IMG/VR virus record: IMGVR_UViG_3300010885_010604
Coordinates: 1 to 33,232 of that record
Length of the DNA: 33,232 nucleotides
Reading direction: 5' to 3' (one strand)
DNA from: a virus
A program made the translations under genes and the position numbers. Of the stretch, positions 8,867-21,558 are shown piece by piece. The notes under the pieces were generated by a model. That model was not told the DNA's origin and did no database searches. It worked only from the letters and a program-made list of their open reading frames with translations. Each line of letters opens with the position of its first letter. The stretch's first letter is position 1.

Positions 8867-8939
8867 CAATGTTATCATAACATTGTGAAATTCCTATATT
8901 CAAGTTCACTAGACATAAAGTCTATTAATATCATATTAA
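8867..8939. repeat. Three adjacent perfect inverted repeats
   Basis: CAATGTTAT-C-ATAACATTG (8867-8885), TAGAC-ataaa-GTCTA (8910-8924) and TTAATAT-C-ATATTAA (8925-8939) lie in an AT-rich gap between a small ORF and the rightward terminator. The first and third are symmetrical around a single C, the form of dimeric repressor operators. The cluster could also be an origin or RNA-processing region. I see no credible gene in 8843-9012. Confidence 0.6.
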
Positions 8940-9012
8940 GCCATAATATTAAATTAAAATCCTGTTAGGTATCCCTGCTACAACACCTTCTAATAGTTCA
9001 AGAAGTCCCTTG

Positions 9013-9042
9013 AAATACCCAGTTAGTTCTGGGTATTTTTTT
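9013..9042 (+). terminator. Rho-independent terminator (rightward)
   Basis: AAATACCCAG (9013-9022) and CTGGGTATTT (9029-9038) form a perfect 10-bp stem with a 6-nt loop, followed by four further Ts. It ends the transcription unit started at the promoter near 8486. A smaller TTCAAG/CTTGAA stem (8997-9002 with 9009-9014) overlaps its base. Confidence 0.92.
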
Positions 9043-9065
9043 GGCTCGTTTTTCGCCGTAAAAGC

Positions 9066-9094
9066 TTGCTTTTTTCGTTAATGTCATATATACT
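9066..9094 (+). promoter_or_regulatory. Rightward sigma70-type promoter
   Basis: TTGCTT (9066-9071), 17-bp spacer, TATACT (9089-9094), just after the terminator at 9013-9042. The predicted start leaves a leader of about 30 nt before ATG 9131, with AGAGAG as the ribosome site. It drives the paralogous pair that follows and, if nothing stops it, the structured region at 9814-10379. Confidence 0.72.
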
Positions 9095-9130
9095 ACACTA
9101 TGGCTTATAGTATTAGTAGAGAGAAAATTT

Positions 9131-9547
9131 ATGTCAATTGGCAACACCTATAATCAAACATCATTAGACATTGCAGCCGCCCAATATAAGGCACGGCTTA
9201 ATAGTCCATCACTAAAACAAAAGCAAACCTGGCATCAGGAGTTTTTGGAAAGCGGAGCACAATACCGTATGGCGTATTCTGTTTTCCTAAAAGAAAAAAT
9301 TCTCCAGTGGCAAGTAGAAAAGAAACTTCGCAACTGGATTTTTGGCGGTGGAAAATATCACGGTAAGAAAATCAAAGATATTATTAGAACTGATATTTCG
9401 TATATCAACTGGACTTTGACTAATAGTCCAAAAGGCAAAGTATCAAGACAGATTGTATTGTATTGTAGAAATAACAATGTTATACTTGATGTTGTTGAAT
9501 CTAATCCATATCTTAAAAACTTACCTAATCCAAAAACTAAAAGATAA
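9131..9547 (+). CDS. ExoX-C-like domain protein, first of tandem pair
   Basis: A 138-aa basic protein. Residues 72-110 carry GGGKYHGKKIKDII, then SYINW and SPKG, matching the small beta-alpha module I know from the C terminus of exodeoxyribonuclease X-like proteins (GKYxGkxIxxIixxDxsYixW). The N-terminal 65 residues are helical and Gln/Lys-rich. No nuclease catalytic domain is present, so it may be a nucleic-acid-binding accessory rather than an exonuclease. It ends TAATG, sharing one base with the start of its paralogue, which carries the same motif. Confidence 0.7.
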   Translation: MSIGNTYNQTSLDIAAAQYKARLNSPSLKQKQTWHQEFLESGAQYRMAYSVFLKEKILQWQVEKKLRNWIFGGGKYHGKKIKDIIRTDISYINWTLTNSPKGKVSRQIVLYCRNNNVILDVVESNPYLKNLPNPKTKR

Positions 9548-9813
9548 TGGCAAAAATGAACTACAACAGACCCAATAATGGCTATGAAAAACAGCCTTGG
9601 GATAAGTTTAGGCAAGACAATCAAAAAAAAGCAAAAGCATTTAACAACACAATTAATCAAGAATCTGTATTCATCAGCGGCAAATACTGGAACAAAGATA
9701 TAGGGCAAATAATTAATCAGGATCCATCTTATTGTGAGTGGATTTTGGTCAATCAGCCCAGAGGCATCGTAGCAAAACAAATAATCAAATATTTTAATAA
9801 AATTCAAAAGTAA
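9547..9813 (+). CDS. ExoX-C-like domain protein, second of tandem pair
   Basis: An 88-aa basic protein whose second half, GKYWNKDIGQII at residues 45-56, SYCEW at 61-65, PRG at 71-73 and IIKYF near the end, aligns by eye with the domain in the preceding gene. The N-terminal 40 residues are Asn/Gln/Lys-rich and look like a shortened version of the first protein's N terminus. The two therefore probably arose by tandem duplication and are co-translated through the TAATG junction. Function is unknown; a role on DNA or RNA is inferred from the domain and charge. Confidence 0.68.
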   Translation: MAKMNYNRPNNGYEKQPWDKFRQDNQKKAKAFNNTINQESVFISGKYWNKDIGQIINQDPSYCEWILVNQPRGIVAKQIIKYFNKIQK

Positions 9814-10379
9814 GATCCCAGCGACACATACCCTCTCTGTGCGTGGAAGAGTCCAAACCTTTGTTAGCCCTAAATCACTTAAACCACTTGTGGTCCTGAT
9901 TGGGATTTCTAACTAACAGCAACGACTATAAACGAACAAGCCTGGCCAAGGCAGACACCTGGGGCGTGTATATCTTTGGCCAGAGCTTTTAGCGTCTGAT
10001 ACACTATATCACGGGTTGAGCTTCCTTATCACGAAAGGTTTTAAAAATCAACTGGGGGAGGGGGTGATGTTCTCTCTTGAGTCTAACAACAAGTCATTTG
10101 TGAATAGGTATTTCACGTGACAACAACTAAAGGTCATCAGAGATGACCTATCAGATGTCAAAGATGACTGCGTCATCTATCTCTTGACATCTGATCTGCC
10201 GCAAAGCTCTCTTTTAATTAAACAACAAGTTTTAGATGAGACGCTTCAGCGGCGATATCTAAAACAGATGTCTCTTGACATCTCACATACATCTCAGTGA
10301 GTTACTCCAAACCCCACACGAAGATCTGAATTCAGAAAAACTCTCAAGGAGAGTGGTGGTATGTGAAATACCAAAAATC
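9814..10379 (+). ncRNA. Candidate large structured RNA or origin region (no gene for 622 bp)
   Basis: No credible ORF lies between 9814 and 10435. Perfect stems are packed here: CTGGCCAA/TTGGCCAG (9942-9949 with 9976-9983), TGATA/TATCA (9997-10001 with 10007-10011), AGGTCATC/GATGACCT (10131-10138 with 10142-10149), an 11-bp outer stem 10150-10160 with 10185-10195 enclosing AGATGAC/GTCATCT, GTTTTAGAT/ATCTAAAAC (10229-10237 with 10257-10265), AGATGTC/GACATCT (10266-10272 with 10277-10283), ACTCTC/GAGAGT (10340-10354) and TGGTAT/ATACCA (10357-10373). At the 5' end ATCCCA/TGGGAT (9815, 9901) and TGTTAG/CTAACA (9862, 9913) would cross, giving a possible pseudoknot. Size and setting resemble large phage-borne RNAs such as GOLLD or ROOL, but I cannot match it to either. 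Transcription would come from the promoter at 9066. A DNA-level origin is the main alternative. Confidence 0.5.
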
Positions 10380-10408
10380 TTGACAAAATCTTTGTAATAT
10401 TGTATACT
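10380..10408 (+). promoter_or_regulatory. Rightward sigma70-type promoter with consensus -35
   Basis: TTGACA (10380-10385), 17-bp spacer, TATACT (10403-10408), then a leader of about 20 nt with AAGGAG seven bases before ATG 10436. It is one of the two strongest rightward promoters in the window. Two hairpins (10340-10354 and 10357-10373) end just upstream of its -35 box. Confidence 0.9.
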
Positions 10409-10435
10409 GTGATAAATAACACACAAGGAGATATT

Positions 10436-10810
10436 ATGGCTAATATAGAACGTGGTATGAGGGAAATTGAAATTCTCACTGATTACCTAAACAATGTTAT
10501 TATTACAACTGGACGGCCCATTGATCGTGACAATCACACGCTGTGGAAGAAGTTCTTCCACCACTACGACAATGTAGATTGGACCAATATGATTGGTGCT
10601 ATGGACTTGATCAAAGAGCATTATCCAGAAGCATTCAAAATATTTCATAGTCAGGCCATTGCGGATGCTAGAGAAATACTCAGTGATCAAGATAATCAAC
10701 GCGGTAGAATCCTGGACACACGTCCACATAAGAATCGTGCTTGGAAAGCTGCCATGGCCATACGTGAAGTGGTCAACACAGTAAATGGCCTGGATATACC
10801 CAACAAATGA
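10436..10810 (+). CDS. Hypothetical early protein
   Basis: A 124-aa, mostly helical soluble protein with many His, Asp, Asn and Arg residues (for example WKKFFHHYDNVDW near residues 40-52). It has no membrane segment or signal. The start is fixed by an excellent AAGGAG site and by the promoter at 10380-10408. Its stop overlaps the next ATG by 4 nt. I do not recognise a family. A strong host-type promoter and first position suggest an early function such as host takeover, which is inference. Confidence 0.8.
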   Translation: MANIERGMREIEILTDYLNNVIITTGRPIDRDNHTLWKKFFHHYDNVDWTNMIGAMDLIKEHYPEAFKIFHSQAIADAREILSDQDNQRGRILDTRPHKNRAWKAAMAIREVVNTVNGLDIPNK

Positions 10811-11844: not shown

Positions 11845-12099
11845 TAATAGGTGTATGATCATGCCACCAAGAGCCGTGATTACTACACCTGCCCAGGCCA
11901 AATACTTTTTGTATACTTCAGTATTGGTAGTTTGTAATGAAGTTTTTATTTCTATTAATACAGATTCTATCTTATCCAAGCGATTATCCACTTGATCAAA
12001 CTTGTTAATTAGTTGTAGGTAGCGTTGTTCACAAAGCTGAACATGCAGTGCTAGGTTATCACTTTCGCCTGGCAATGTTTCAATTATGTTATTGCTCAC
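11836..12099 (-). CDS. Holin-like coiled-coil protein with C-terminal membrane segment
   Basis: An 87-aa protein with a helical, heptad-patterned centre (LINKFDQVDNRLDKIESVLI, about residues 30-49) and one C-terminal membrane segment, YLAWAGVVITALGGMIIHLL, ending in SR. This plan matches XhlA-type holin accessory proteins and other single-pass phage lysis proteins. I prefer GTG 12099, whose GTGA overlaps the Dps stop; TTG 12123 is a longer alternative. It is the last gene of the leftward arm, a usual lysis position. I see no clear terminator after it. Confidence 0.62.
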   Translation of the reverse strand: MSNNIIETLPGESDNLALHVQLCEQRYLQLINKFDQVDNRLDKIESVLIEIKTSLQTTNTEVYKKYLAWAGVVITALGGMIIHLLSR

Positions 12100-12533
12100 G
12101 ATAAACTTGAGTTGATCATCCAAATGAACCGTTTGAGTTCAGCCAAACGATCTTGGCTGTGGTTGGCAATTTGTTCTTGATCATCGTCCGTGGCCGCAAT
12201 GATCAGTTGGTGATGTAGGTCAACCAGGGTTTGTAGATCAACGCAGACTTCTGTTAACAATTCATCTTCCGTGCCATCAATCACAGACATTTCATCTATT
12301 TGACTTAGGTCAGTTATGGCATCACTTGACATTGGCACAAATGCATCCAGGGTGCGAACGAACTCACCCAAAGTGTCAATGTCTTCAAAGTTAGCTTCAT
12401 AGATTTTTTGCAGTAACTTGTGCCAGCTATAAAAGTTTGGCCCTACTAGGTTTAGATGTGCTATGTGGCTACGTGTGTAGGCCACGTGTGTGGTTGCAAA
12501 CGTTTCTGTTAATTTGTCTACTAATGCTGTCAT
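12096..12533 (-). CDS. dps: Dps-like ferritin (DNA protection during starvation)
   Basis: A 145-aa protein of Dps size. HLNLVGPNFYSWH matches the Dps signature HWNxxGxNFxxxH, and DIDTLGEF matches the LDTxAER region. Ferroxidase positions agree in spacing with E. coli Dps: H26, H38, D53 and E57 correspond to H51, H63, D78 and E82; the D67 equivalent is Gln. Dps forms 12-subunit shells that oxidise and store iron and shield DNA. A basic N-terminal DNA-binding tail is missing, so iron or peroxide handling is the likelier role. AGGAAA precedes the ATG. It is co-transcribed with structural and lysis genes, so it is made late or packaged. Confidence 0.85.
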   Translation of the reverse strand: MTALVDKLTETFATTHVAYTRSHIAHLNLVGPNFYSWHKLLQKIYEANFEDIDTLGEFVRTLDAFVPMSSDAITDLSQIDEMSVIDGTEDELLTEVCVDLQTLVDLHHQLIIAATDDDQEQIANHSQDRLAELKRFIWMINSSLS

Positions 12534-18255: not shown

Positions 18256-21200
18256 TTATCCGTTTATTGGTGATGAACTCACAGCCTGTGTGGCTGCCAA
18301 CGCATTGGCTGCATCTAAGAACTGCTGATGCGTCATTGGCGTATAAGGTGTGGGCTGTGACAACTGCACTCCGTGTGCTAATGCTTGTTGCGTTACATTT
18401 GGTCCATACAATGCATTTGTTTGCAATGTGGAAATGTCATTGTTTTTAACAATGTTATTGACAGTGCCATAATCACCTGTGTTCCAAGCATCATGCAATT
18501 GTGTTTGAATTGGATGTTGTGTGGAGGGTGTTCTTGTTGCCGCTGGAGTCACAGGACCAGTCAAGGCCTGTTGTGCGCCCCAGGGTGTAGCTGGAGCCTG
18601 TGGTGTATAGTTGTATGCACCAATATCAGCTGGTCCTATTGCATAAGGATGTTGTCCCCAATAAAACTTGCTTTGCACTGGATTGGTTGTTTGGTAAGCT
18701 GGTGTTGCTTGAATATATCCTGGATTTAATCCTGGGTTTACTAATGCACCCTGTGTAGTTGGCATTGCGAATCCGCCTGTGGTTGGTATTGTAACATTTC
18801 CAGTTACGCTGGGTTTTTTAGTAATAATAGGTATAAGGCTTCCATCTACTACTACGTTGCCATCTGTTACTACGTTGCCTTCTGTTACTACATTGCCAGG
18901 TGGCACAACTACGTTACCAGGTGGCACAACTACGTTACCAGGTGGCACTACTACATTGCCAGGTGGCACTACTACATTGCCAGGTGGCACTACTACGTTA
19001 CCAGGTGGCACAACTACGTTACCAGGTGGCACTACTACGTTACCAGGTATAGTTATATTGCCAGTGCCAGATATGCCAGTTCCGCCTATGTTGGCAATAG
19101 TATTACCAGTGCCGCTGATATTGCCCAGGACATTGCCATATGTGTTGCCTAATGTGCTGACTATATTACCCAATGGTGTTCCTGTATTAGAGGTGCTTAC
19201 AGTTGTAAGATTACCTGTGCTTGACACGCCTGTTCCACCAGTGCTACCACCAGAACCAGGAATATTACCAGTAGGTAAGTTTAAATTTAATCCTGGTGTG
19301 CTGAGGCCGCCTGTGGCCACTGGGCCAGTTGATATTGTTACATTACCAGTTGGTGTTACTGGTGTCGTTGCAATATTACCAGTTGGTGCTACAGGCGCAA
19401 CTGCAACATTACCAGTTGGTGCTACTGCAACATTACCAGTTGGTGCCACAGGTGCATTCACAGGTGGAATTGTTGGGTTAGTAGGACTTGATGTTGTTTT
19501 AGAACCTTGTGTTAATACTGGCACGCTTGTTAGTTGTCCAGTAACGTCCTTTGAAGATATAAACGTTGGTGGTTTAGAACTGCTGGTTACATCAAATCCA
19601 CCTGATGAATTTTGAACAGCAGTATTATAACTTACTTTCCCTGTGGCTGGATCATACACAATGGTATATTTGTATGGTGTTCCATCAGCTGTATTACCAC
19701 TTACATATGAACTATAATATGTGTGTCCTGGATCAGATTCAGAATCAACACTTTGATTTATGATCCTTTCGCCTGAACTTGGATCTATTGCTTGCATTTT
19801 ACTTGAATCAAATATTGCAGCATCTGTGGGATTGGTTGCCATCATTTGTCCCAGTGTCAATTGTGGTCTTGATGGAGGTGTCACAGGAGCCACTGGTTCC
19901 GCTGGAGCACTAAACATATTCTTAATAGTATCCAATAAACCAGCATTCATCACACCATTGACAGCGATTGGTTGCCCTGCGTTCATGGCGTTTTGTAGGT
20001 CTGTAGTTGATACAGTTTGGCCACCTGGCAATACTATATCACCATTTGGAAATATTGTGCCAGGAGGACTATCACTGGTGCCAGTTGGCGTAAGATTGAA
20101 TACTCCAGGTGCAACAGGACCTGTGGCACCAGTGTAACTTACTGGTGTATTTCCAGTATAGTTTATATTTCCAACTGGTGTTGCTGTTCCATCTATCACA
20201 GGCACATCACCACTGGTTGGTTGTGGTAATGCTCGTCCTGGTATTTCTGTGCCGCTGCCTGTGACTGGATTGCTCATAACACCGTATTGATTGGCAGTAT
20301 TGGTTAATCCCAAAGTATCTTTGACAAACGATGAACCTTGTCCTGCATTATAAGCAGTGGTGTTGACCAATGCTTGTGTGGCGGCATTGATATTGCCATT
20401 TGTTTGTAATAATGTGCCTGCACCAGCACCTAATGCTGTGCTGCCAGTGGCATTGGTAACTGCATATTGAACAATACTACCAGCCGCTGATGTTAATGCA
20501 TCTTTGCCAGTGCCACCTGCGGCCAATGTTGTGCCTGCTCGTGTAATTGCATTAGATGCCATTTGTAATGTATTTGGATCATTGATTAAACTGCTGAGTT
20601 GACTTGATACTGCACCAGATGCATCTAATCCTGCTGGACCTGCTAATGCACTTACAAGAATAGTCTTTGGATCTGCGCCACTGGCCAATTGCAATCCTGC
20701 TTGTGCCAATGCTGTTCCCACAGTGGTGCTTACGCCTAACTCTGTGGCCAATAACTCACCCACGCCAGGTAAGAAATAACTTGCCGTTGCCATTATGGCC
20801 ATGTTGGCTATTTGATTTACTCCTCCCGCAAAACCACCTGTGCTTTGATTTACACCAATATTGTAAGCGGCTGAAGTATTAACTGGAGCCAACAGACCAT
20901 TGTCTCCAACTTTGGTAGCAATTTGAATCATGCCACCACCCTGCACAGTAGGAATATTCACACCCAAATTACCATTCATATCTTGACGAATATCAATACC
21001 TTGTAATTCTTTACCTGTGGTTGTATCTGTTAAAAATATATGATCGCCATCATTGTTAAATTGTAAAGTTCCATTTTGTAAACCAGCAAACACATCTGGA
21101 TTTGCTTGTTGTGCGGCAGCAATTAGGGTTGAATCTGCTATACCATTATATGTGCCAGGCGATCCTGGATTTGTAGTTCCTATAAATGAACCTGAATAAG

Positions 21201-21558
21201 GAAGTGCAGGTGCCACTGGAGCCACAGGAGCAGGAGCAGGCTTGATTGCTTCTACTGGAGGTGGATTATAAACAGGTTCTGGTGCTGATGGATTATAAGG
21301 AAGATCCTGCGGCGGTGGAGTATACACAGGTTCTGGTGCAACGGCCACTGGAGCTGGTGCAGGTTCTGGTGCTGGAGCTACGCCAGCATCTTGGAAGATT
21401 TGACTTATAGTTCCAGAGTCAACGCCAGTTGCGGCCGCTATTTCGCTTACGCTTACGCCAGCTGCTGAAGCCGCTGCGGCAATGTCAGCATTACTTGCTC
21501 CATTGGCCTGCATGTCTGCAATAGCACTGGCTATTTCTTCTGCGGTATAATCTGACAT
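18256..21558 (-). CDS. 1,100-aa multidomain virion protein with VVVPPGN repeat
   Basis: Domains by eye: residues 1-65, two Ala-rich helix repeats (ASNADIAAAASAAGVSVSEI); 66-115, Pro/Ala linker; 116-240, a beta-rich region; about 250-400, a long Ala/Gly/Leu stretch with glycine spacing resembling membrane-active ejection proteins; 400-700, beta-rich with TGN turns; 700-860, tandem APTGNV units; then seven perfect GNVVVPP units and three decayed ones; and a Pro/Gln/Tyr-rich tail. AGGA precedes the ATG. A tail or ejection protein is likely. The DNA repeats make long antisense frames, which I regard as artefacts. Confidence 0.65.
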   Translation of the reverse strand: MSDYTAEEIASAIADMQANGASNADIAAAASAAGVSVSEIAAATGVDSGTISQIFQDAGVAPAPEPAPAPVAVAPEPVYTPPPQDLPYNPSAPEPVYNPPPVEAIKPAPAPVAPVAPALPYSGSFIGTTNPGSPGTYNGIADSTLIAAAQQANPDVFAGLQNGTLQFNNDGDHIFLTDTTTGKELQGIDIRQDMNGNLGVNIPTVQGGGMIQIATKVGDNGLLAPVNTSAAYNIGVNQSTGGFAGGVNQIANMAIMATASYFLPGVGELLATELGVSTTVGTALAQAGLQLASGADPKTILVSALAGPAGLDASGAVSSQLSSLINDPNTLQMASNAITRAGTTLAAGGTGKDALTSAAGSIVQYAVTNATGSTALGAGAGTLLQTNGNINAATQALVNTTAYNAGQGSSFVKDTLGLTNTANQYGVMSNPVTGSGTEIPGRALPQPTSGDVPVIDGTATPVGNINYTGNTPVSYTGATGPVAPGVFNLTPTGTSDSPPGTIFPNGDIVLPGGQTVSTTDLQNAMNAGQPIAVNGVMNAGLLDTIKNMFSAPAEPVAPVTPPSRPQLTLGQMMATNPTDAAIFDSSKMQAIDPSSGERIINQSVDSESDPGHTYYSSYVSGNTADGTPYKYTIVYDPATGKVSYNTAVQNSSGGFDVTSSSKPPTFISSKDVTGQLTSVPVLTQGSKTTSSPTNPTIPPVNAPVAPTGNVAVAPTGNVAVAPVAPTGNIATTPVTPTGNVTISTGPVATGGLSTPGLNLNLPTGNIPGSGGSTGGTGVSSTGNLTTVSTSNTGTPLGNIVSTLGNTYGNVLGNISGTGNTIANIGGTGISGTGNITIPGNVVVPPGNVVVPPGNVVVPPGNVVVPPGNVVVPPGNVVVPPGNVVVPPGNVVTEGNVVTDGNVVVDGSLIPIITKKPSVTGNVTIPTTGGFAMPTTQGALVNPGLNPGYIQATPAYQTTNPVQSKFYWGQHPYAIGPADIGAYNYTPQAPATPWGAQQALTGPVTPAATRTPSTQHPIQTQLHDAWNTGDYGTVNNIVKNNDISTLQTNALYGPNVTQQALAHGVQLSQPTPYTPMTHQQFLDAANALAATQAVSSSPING
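18896..19045 (-). repeat. 21-bp tandem repeat, seven copies (GNVVVPP)
   Basis: The + strand repeats ACGTTACCAGGTGGCACAAC plus one T, a 21-bp unit, with small third-position changes between copies (ACAACT or ACTACT; ACGTTA or ACATTG). Each unit encodes Gly-Asn-Val-Val-Val-Pro-Pro on the minus strand. Three degenerate units (GNVVTE, GNVVTD, GNVVVD) flank the array at its C-terminal side. The unit is a multiple of three, so copy number can change without breaking the frame. Confidence 0.92.

Follow-up and report, generated by a model that had tools for sequence, protein, structure and literature searches.

The gene-free block and its neighbours

The virus record studied here is 33,232 bp long and was analysed as a whole (hereafter the window), and related contigs were gathered via the terminase, neighbouring proteins and DNA patterns. 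Its structural genes lie on the - strand, and a small cluster of + strand genes occupies about 8.1-11.7 kb of the window. Within this cluster, a gene-free block of 622 bp runs from 9814, directly after the TAA stop codon of the gene at 9547-9813, to 10435, directly before the ATG at 10436 (Table 1). That this stretch lacks a credible ORF, as the original prediction had claimed, is borne out by the ORF list, which contains no frame longer than 61 aa on either strand of 9814-10435, and by a six-frame comparison with the homologous block of contig L091, in which no frame is conserved and only short matches appear, in several frames. The same comparison recovered the neighbouring gene full-length as a positive control, and a hidden conserved protein, the counter-possibility raised at the outset, was rejected on its result.

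Two small genes encoding proteins with an ExoX-like_C domain precede the block. The homologue of the first of them in L091 is 59% identical and is followed by the homologous RNA block. On the other side, the downstream gene has a homologue in contig L083 (62% identical) that lies just 3′ of the hairpin pair X-Y described below. At about 9015-9041, 5′ of both ExoX-like_C genes, lies an inverted repeat that resembles a terminator and includes a T-run (TACCCAGTTAGTTCTGGGTATTTTTTT), as would fit a transcription unit that begins near 9070-9130; the promoter previously proposed at 9066 fails a consensus scan. The intergenic stretch 8881-9120, which contains this repeat among several others, has the second most extreme fold z of the record (-6.5, on the - strand).

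Table 1. Genes, promoter and predicted RNA elements around the gene-free block, in window coordinates
Feature	Position	Strand	Remarks
Upstream gene, 138 aa, ExoX-like_C domain	9131..9547	+	Pfam PF20600, E 7e-8
Second small ExoX-like_C gene, 88 aa	9547..9813	+	PF20600, E 2.4e-4, weaker than the family cut-off
5′ domain of the predicted RNA	9814..10080	+	Sequence conserved, energy not unusual
Stem TGTTAG/CTAACA	9862..9918	+	Apparently GCGC/GCGC instead in L091
Hairpin CTGGCCAA/TTGGCCAG	9942..9983	+	Part varies with compensation in L091
Hairpin H1, AGGTCATC/GATGACCT	10131..10149	+	L091 version AGGTCGAC/GTCGACCT
Long hairpin H2, ATCAGATGTCAA/TTGACATCTGAT	10150..10195	+	L091 version ATCAGACGCCAA/TTGGCGTCTGAT
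Hairpin X, GTTTTAGAT/ATCTAAAAC	10229..10265	+	Tandem 3′ signature; letters vary by lineage, pairing kept
Hairpin Y, AGATGTC-TCTT-GACATCT	10266..10283	+	Most relatives AGATCTC-loop-GAGATCT
Near-consensus sigma-70 promoter for the next gene, TTGACA-17-TATACT	10380..10408	+	Consensus scan
Downstream gene, 124 aa, no assigned function	10436..10810	+	ORF list, synteny

Predicted fold

Where the original prediction had counted at least nine perfect or near-perfect stems, we find 12 inverted-repeat pairs, of which six are perfect. Not all of them can form together, as the pairings at 10150-10195 and 10266-10283 both use the AGATGTC motif. The dense pairing proposed between 10131 and 10283 is upheld, both by compensatory changes in H1 and H2 (see below) and by energy: 10119-10290 folds at -63.4 kcal/mol, compared with -32.0 +/- 3.5 kcal/mol for shuffled sequence (z -9.06), and 10081-10320 on the + strand, with a z of -8.15, is the lowest among 550 window-strand tests across the 33 kb. 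The 5′ part (9814-10080), in contrast, is no more stable than its shuffled versions (z -0.41). The idea of a large structured phage RNA outside Rfam is strengthened by the fold z-scores, the compensatory changes, the lack of a conserved ORF and the absence of a match to known families (see below).

As a whole, the block has a fold z of -6.4 on the + strand and -4.5 on the - strand, and the block of L091 even has a lower fold energy on the - strand than on the + strand. Fold energy thus leaves the strand undecided; gene order and the promoter 3′ of the block favour the + strand, and it is from gene order that we infer its transcription in this direction.

Within the 5′ domain, an invariant CCCAG near 9817 is able to pair with CTGGG near 10053. 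A pseudoknot suggested here (9815/9901 crossing 9862/9913) finds no support in the homologue: the arm at about 9901 lies inside a 43-nt stretch that is absent from L091. In the other stem, at 9862/9913, the letters are apparently replaced in L091 by GCGC/GCGC, which can still pair. No intrinsic terminator with a U-run is present at the 3′ end of the block on the + strand.

Conservation and compensatory change in a homologue

Searching with the upstream ExoX-like_C protein led to two near-identical contigs, L090 and L091, which both give the same match and carry the block at the same position, right after the stop codon of the homologous ExoX-like_C gene. Parts of the module are inverted in L091 relative to its neighbours. 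Between 9935 and 10062, the window and L091 are 78% identical, as compared with 66% at the DNA level in the adjoining gene, and conservation extends to unpaired stretches in addition to stems.

The comparison with homologues for which the original prediction had called yielded compensatory changes. When the window's own fold is taken as the hypothesis, 15 pairs have both partners altered in L091 and remain able to pair, against 6.6 expected, and none of 5000 shuffles that keep the substitution spectrum reaches 15. The reciprocal test is weaker (13 vs 7.9, P 0.04), and a consensus of the two sequences contains 11 pairs with both sides changed; all of these counts for the window core are based on two distinct sequences, the window and L091. 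The clearest compensatory changes fall in hairpins H1 and H2. Changes confined to one side of a pair in the consensus agree with G-U pairing on the + strand, although this signal is weak.

Further members of this RNA did not emerge from the sequences searched. A covariance model of the window core (R2) matches only the window and L091; one additional hit, of 19.9 bits in L109, was discarded, as it lies inside a coding gene. Running blastn with the window and L091 blocks returned only a 36-nt chance match in named phages and nothing in plasmids, protein searches with the flanking genes matched none of the named phages, and the pattern TAAAAATCAACTGGGGG was found, besides L090/L091, in unrelated viral contigs only.

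Tandem hairpins at the 3′ end

The block shares its 3′ end with a wider group of phages. In 11 lineages, each phage has exactly one copy of hairpin Y, AGAT[C/G]TC-loop-GA[G/C]ATCT; it invariably closes the slot considered below on the 3′ side, and hairpin X, whose letters are specific to each lineage, lies directly 5′ of it. The X-Y pair is carried by the window (10229-10283), by L091, by a second RNA class in small phages (see below) and by L083, which has neither core. Since X stems by themselves are mostly no longer than stems near random positions, the evidence for X-Y comes from Y being single-copy and fixed in position and from the flush spacing of the two hairpins rather than from X stem length.

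The next start codon follows hairpin Y within a few bases in L085 and L095. In the window and in L091, a near-consensus promoter (TTGACA-17-TATAAT at the same place in the latter) separates the block from the downstream gene. With a separate promoter following X-Y, the block is probably not the leader of the next gene, even though read-through may still occur.

An exchangeable slot

Many relatives carry a different non-coding block at the same part of the genome (L013, L084, L085, L092, L093, L095, L132, L134 and L139). These blocks align with one another and are referred to here as the second class. In an alignment of nine sequences, larger phages included, the 3′ core of this class shows strong covariation, with 95.6% of cells paired and both partners changed in 9 of 18 pairs; none of 500 shuffles scores as high, and slid controls lie far below. 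The core is also present in viral contigs of 11-372 kb (L107-L115), the large ones of which have neighbours quite different from those in the small phages, and it is found twice in a Yoonia MAG. The two Yoonia copies (L116:7270-7720 on the - strand and NZ_JAGYJK010000017.1 at about 822017-822468) are 97% identical and 14.7 kb apart, one of them just upstream of a phage integrase gene. No ExoX-like gene was seen next to the second-class RNA in L013 and L084.

Other relatives fill the slot differently. In L137 it is empty, a gene that begins like the one at 9547-9813 being followed by 35 nt and then by the next gene, and L139 has parts of the module in inverted orientation with respect to the neighbours. 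L088 (5049-5614) and L083 (5284-5505) contain further strongly folded, gene-free blocks (z about -6) in which no sequence match to the window core was found; the L083 block ends in the X-Y hairpins and that of L088 in a variant, GTATCTC/GAGATAC. As L088 resembles the window RNA in layout only (an H1-like hairpin, AGGTCGTA/TACGACCT, at a place similar to that of H1, a long hairpin, X and the Y variant), it was not counted as a member. The locus is hence an exchangeable slot that is occupied in different relatives by this RNA, by an RNA with an unrelated core, by other structured blocks or by nothing.

Two side observations concern the surroundings of the second class. In six contigs (L107, L108, L111, L112, L114 and L115), a permuted tmRNA gene is located about 1-2 kb from the second-class RNA (e.g. 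L112:2559-2980 on the - strand); it corresponds to RF04321, with 102-117 bits in the two contigs scanned, and has the tag AKASKFEYMTVDFSLEAADMVA. Moreover, a terminator-like hairpin of variable sequence lies 5′ of the second-class core, within a conserved TCTCCA/TGGAGA stem (L013:5035-5145 and equivalents in L084, L085, L092, L093, L095, L132 and L083). This element looks like a switch or an insulator.

Comparison with known and second-class RNAs

The window RNA and the second class of the small phages share the slot and the X-Y hairpins at the 3′ end, but their cores are not detectably related in sequence or structure. With filters off, a covariance model of the second-class 3′ core (R1) gives no more than 4.8 bits on the + strand of the window and one of the 5′ core (R3) no more than 4.1 bits, the values for L091 being 11.3 and 4.2 bits, respectively. 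Second-class members, in comparison, reach 78-108 bits (R1) and 49-158 bits (R3), and R3 finds members outside the model (L132, L139 and L134) at E 1e-13 to 1e-33. A search of the window with nhmmer and the second class gave only an E of 0.25, at the 3′ hairpins. Homology of the cores was thus not detected by either covariance model, and given these scores for the window and L091 we do not place the window RNA in the second class.

As to known families, Rfam gives nothing over the window at the gathering threshold and chance hits only over the block at E <= 10. GOLLD is a large, ornate phage RNA of unknown function with conserved and variable halves, and ROOL is a structured RNA of about 600 nt from phages and prophages without a known protein partner (PMC12286853). 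The predicted window RNA resembles both in being a large structured phage RNA, yet the GOLLD model (RF02032) finds nothing at E <= 10 in the window, L091, L085 and L110 records, and the ROOL model (RF03087) has none at E <= 10 in a search that also stayed silent in the control genomes. Furthermore, GOLLD and ROOL usually sit near tRNA genes (PMC12286853), whereas the 33-kb window contains none. A group I intron (RF00028) is not matched either, and the block sits between two intact genes. In our reading, the block represents a new class among the 'large phage RNAs' that lies outside Rfam.

Polynucleobacter-1 RNA (RF01718) is listed from Burkholderiales and fresh water (PMC2864571) and gives no hit in the window or L091 at E <= 10. 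Through its larger-phage copies, the second class shows a weak likeness to this family (28.7 bits against a cut-off of 37, E 4e-4 in 1 kb), and the full Polynucleobacter-1 RNA (61 bits) also occurs in the 372-kb and 172-kb contigs that carry the second class. Through this likeness, an orphan Rfam family becomes linked to a broader group of phage RNAs whose conserved core is much longer. As with the exchangeable slot and the common 3′ hairpins, it is not visible from the window alone.

A candidate trans-acting RNA and its alternatives

On balance, we lean towards a stand-alone structured ncRNA gene at about 9814-10285 on the + strand, the RNA of about 470 nt occupying the exchangeable slot and acting in trans. 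It would probably be co-transcribed with the two small ExoX-like_C genes just 5′ of it, end in the abutting hairpins X and Y, before the separate strong promoter of the next gene, and, perhaps after processing, accumulate as a molecule of its own. Its predicted fold would combine a sequence-conserved 5′ domain with a very stable 3′ domain, and it may work in the infected cell as an assembly of RNA alone or of RNA and protein, along the lines suggested for GOLLD or ROOL. The adjacent ExoX-like_C protein is a possible partner; for this partnership as for the trans function, it is the position of the block that provides the hint. An RNA gene is further supported by hairpin X, which varies in sequence and keeps its pairing across the 11 lineages, and by the second RNA with strong covariation in the same slot and in larger viral contigs. 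More tentatively, the slot could be a dedicated RNA-cassette locus at which the phages of one lineage swap structurally unrelated large RNAs flanked by similar upstream genes and the same tandem 3′ hairpins, the different folds all doing the same job.

GOLLD, ROOL and other large structured RNAs of phages rank with the most elaborate RNAs known, and none of them has an established function. A small phage (with a 33-kb record) that has an RNA of this kind, its relatives having a different one or none in the same slot, amounts to a natural swap experiment.

The main rival, which we consider rather unlikely, is a cis-acting intercistronic element whose hairpins stabilise or process the ExoX-like_C message or insulate it from the downstream promoter, with no trans-acting RNA involved. 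The start of the block right after a stop codon in both genomes, the closeness of Y to the following start codon in L085 and L095 and the separate promoter of the next gene would all suit such an element. About 470 nt with a conserved 5′ domain, however, far exceed what processing or insulation needs, and the core of the other slot RNA recurs in large viral contigs among quite different neighbours.

There is only a small chance that the window RNA belongs to the Polynucleobacter-1-like second class as a strongly diverged member that shares its ancestry and mode of action. The shared slot and X-Y hairpins, together with a similar stem followed by UUAAAAAUC, speak for such kinship, but they have to be set against the low scores of the window with both second-class models and against L083, where X-Y without either core suggests that the hairpin pair may be a feature of the slot rather than of the RNA.

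Less likely still, the inverted repeats could work at the level of DNA, forming cruciforms or offering sites to proteins during replication, packaging or cassette exchange. Such a role would account for the low fold energy on both strands, for a single-copy X-Y at the boundary of a variable slot and for the inversion of the module in L091 and L139; it is at odds with unpaired stretches that are conserved along with the stems, with the occurrence of the other slot RNA in very different genomes and, weakly, with the fit of single-sided changes to G-U pairs on the + strand.

That the hairpins arose by chance in a non-coding gap without function is highly improbable, for although the 5′ part is not unusually stable, this reading is already contradicted by the conservation data (part of the gap is more conserved than the neighbouring gene) and by the energy of 10119-10290 and the compensatory changes in L091.

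Other genes of the window

Two genes on the - strand of the window deserve mention in their own right. One, at 12096-12533, encodes a protein with a ferritin-like domain that is conserved in most relatives, and the other, at 18256-21558, encodes a protein of 1100 aa with about seven tandem GNVVVPP repeats.
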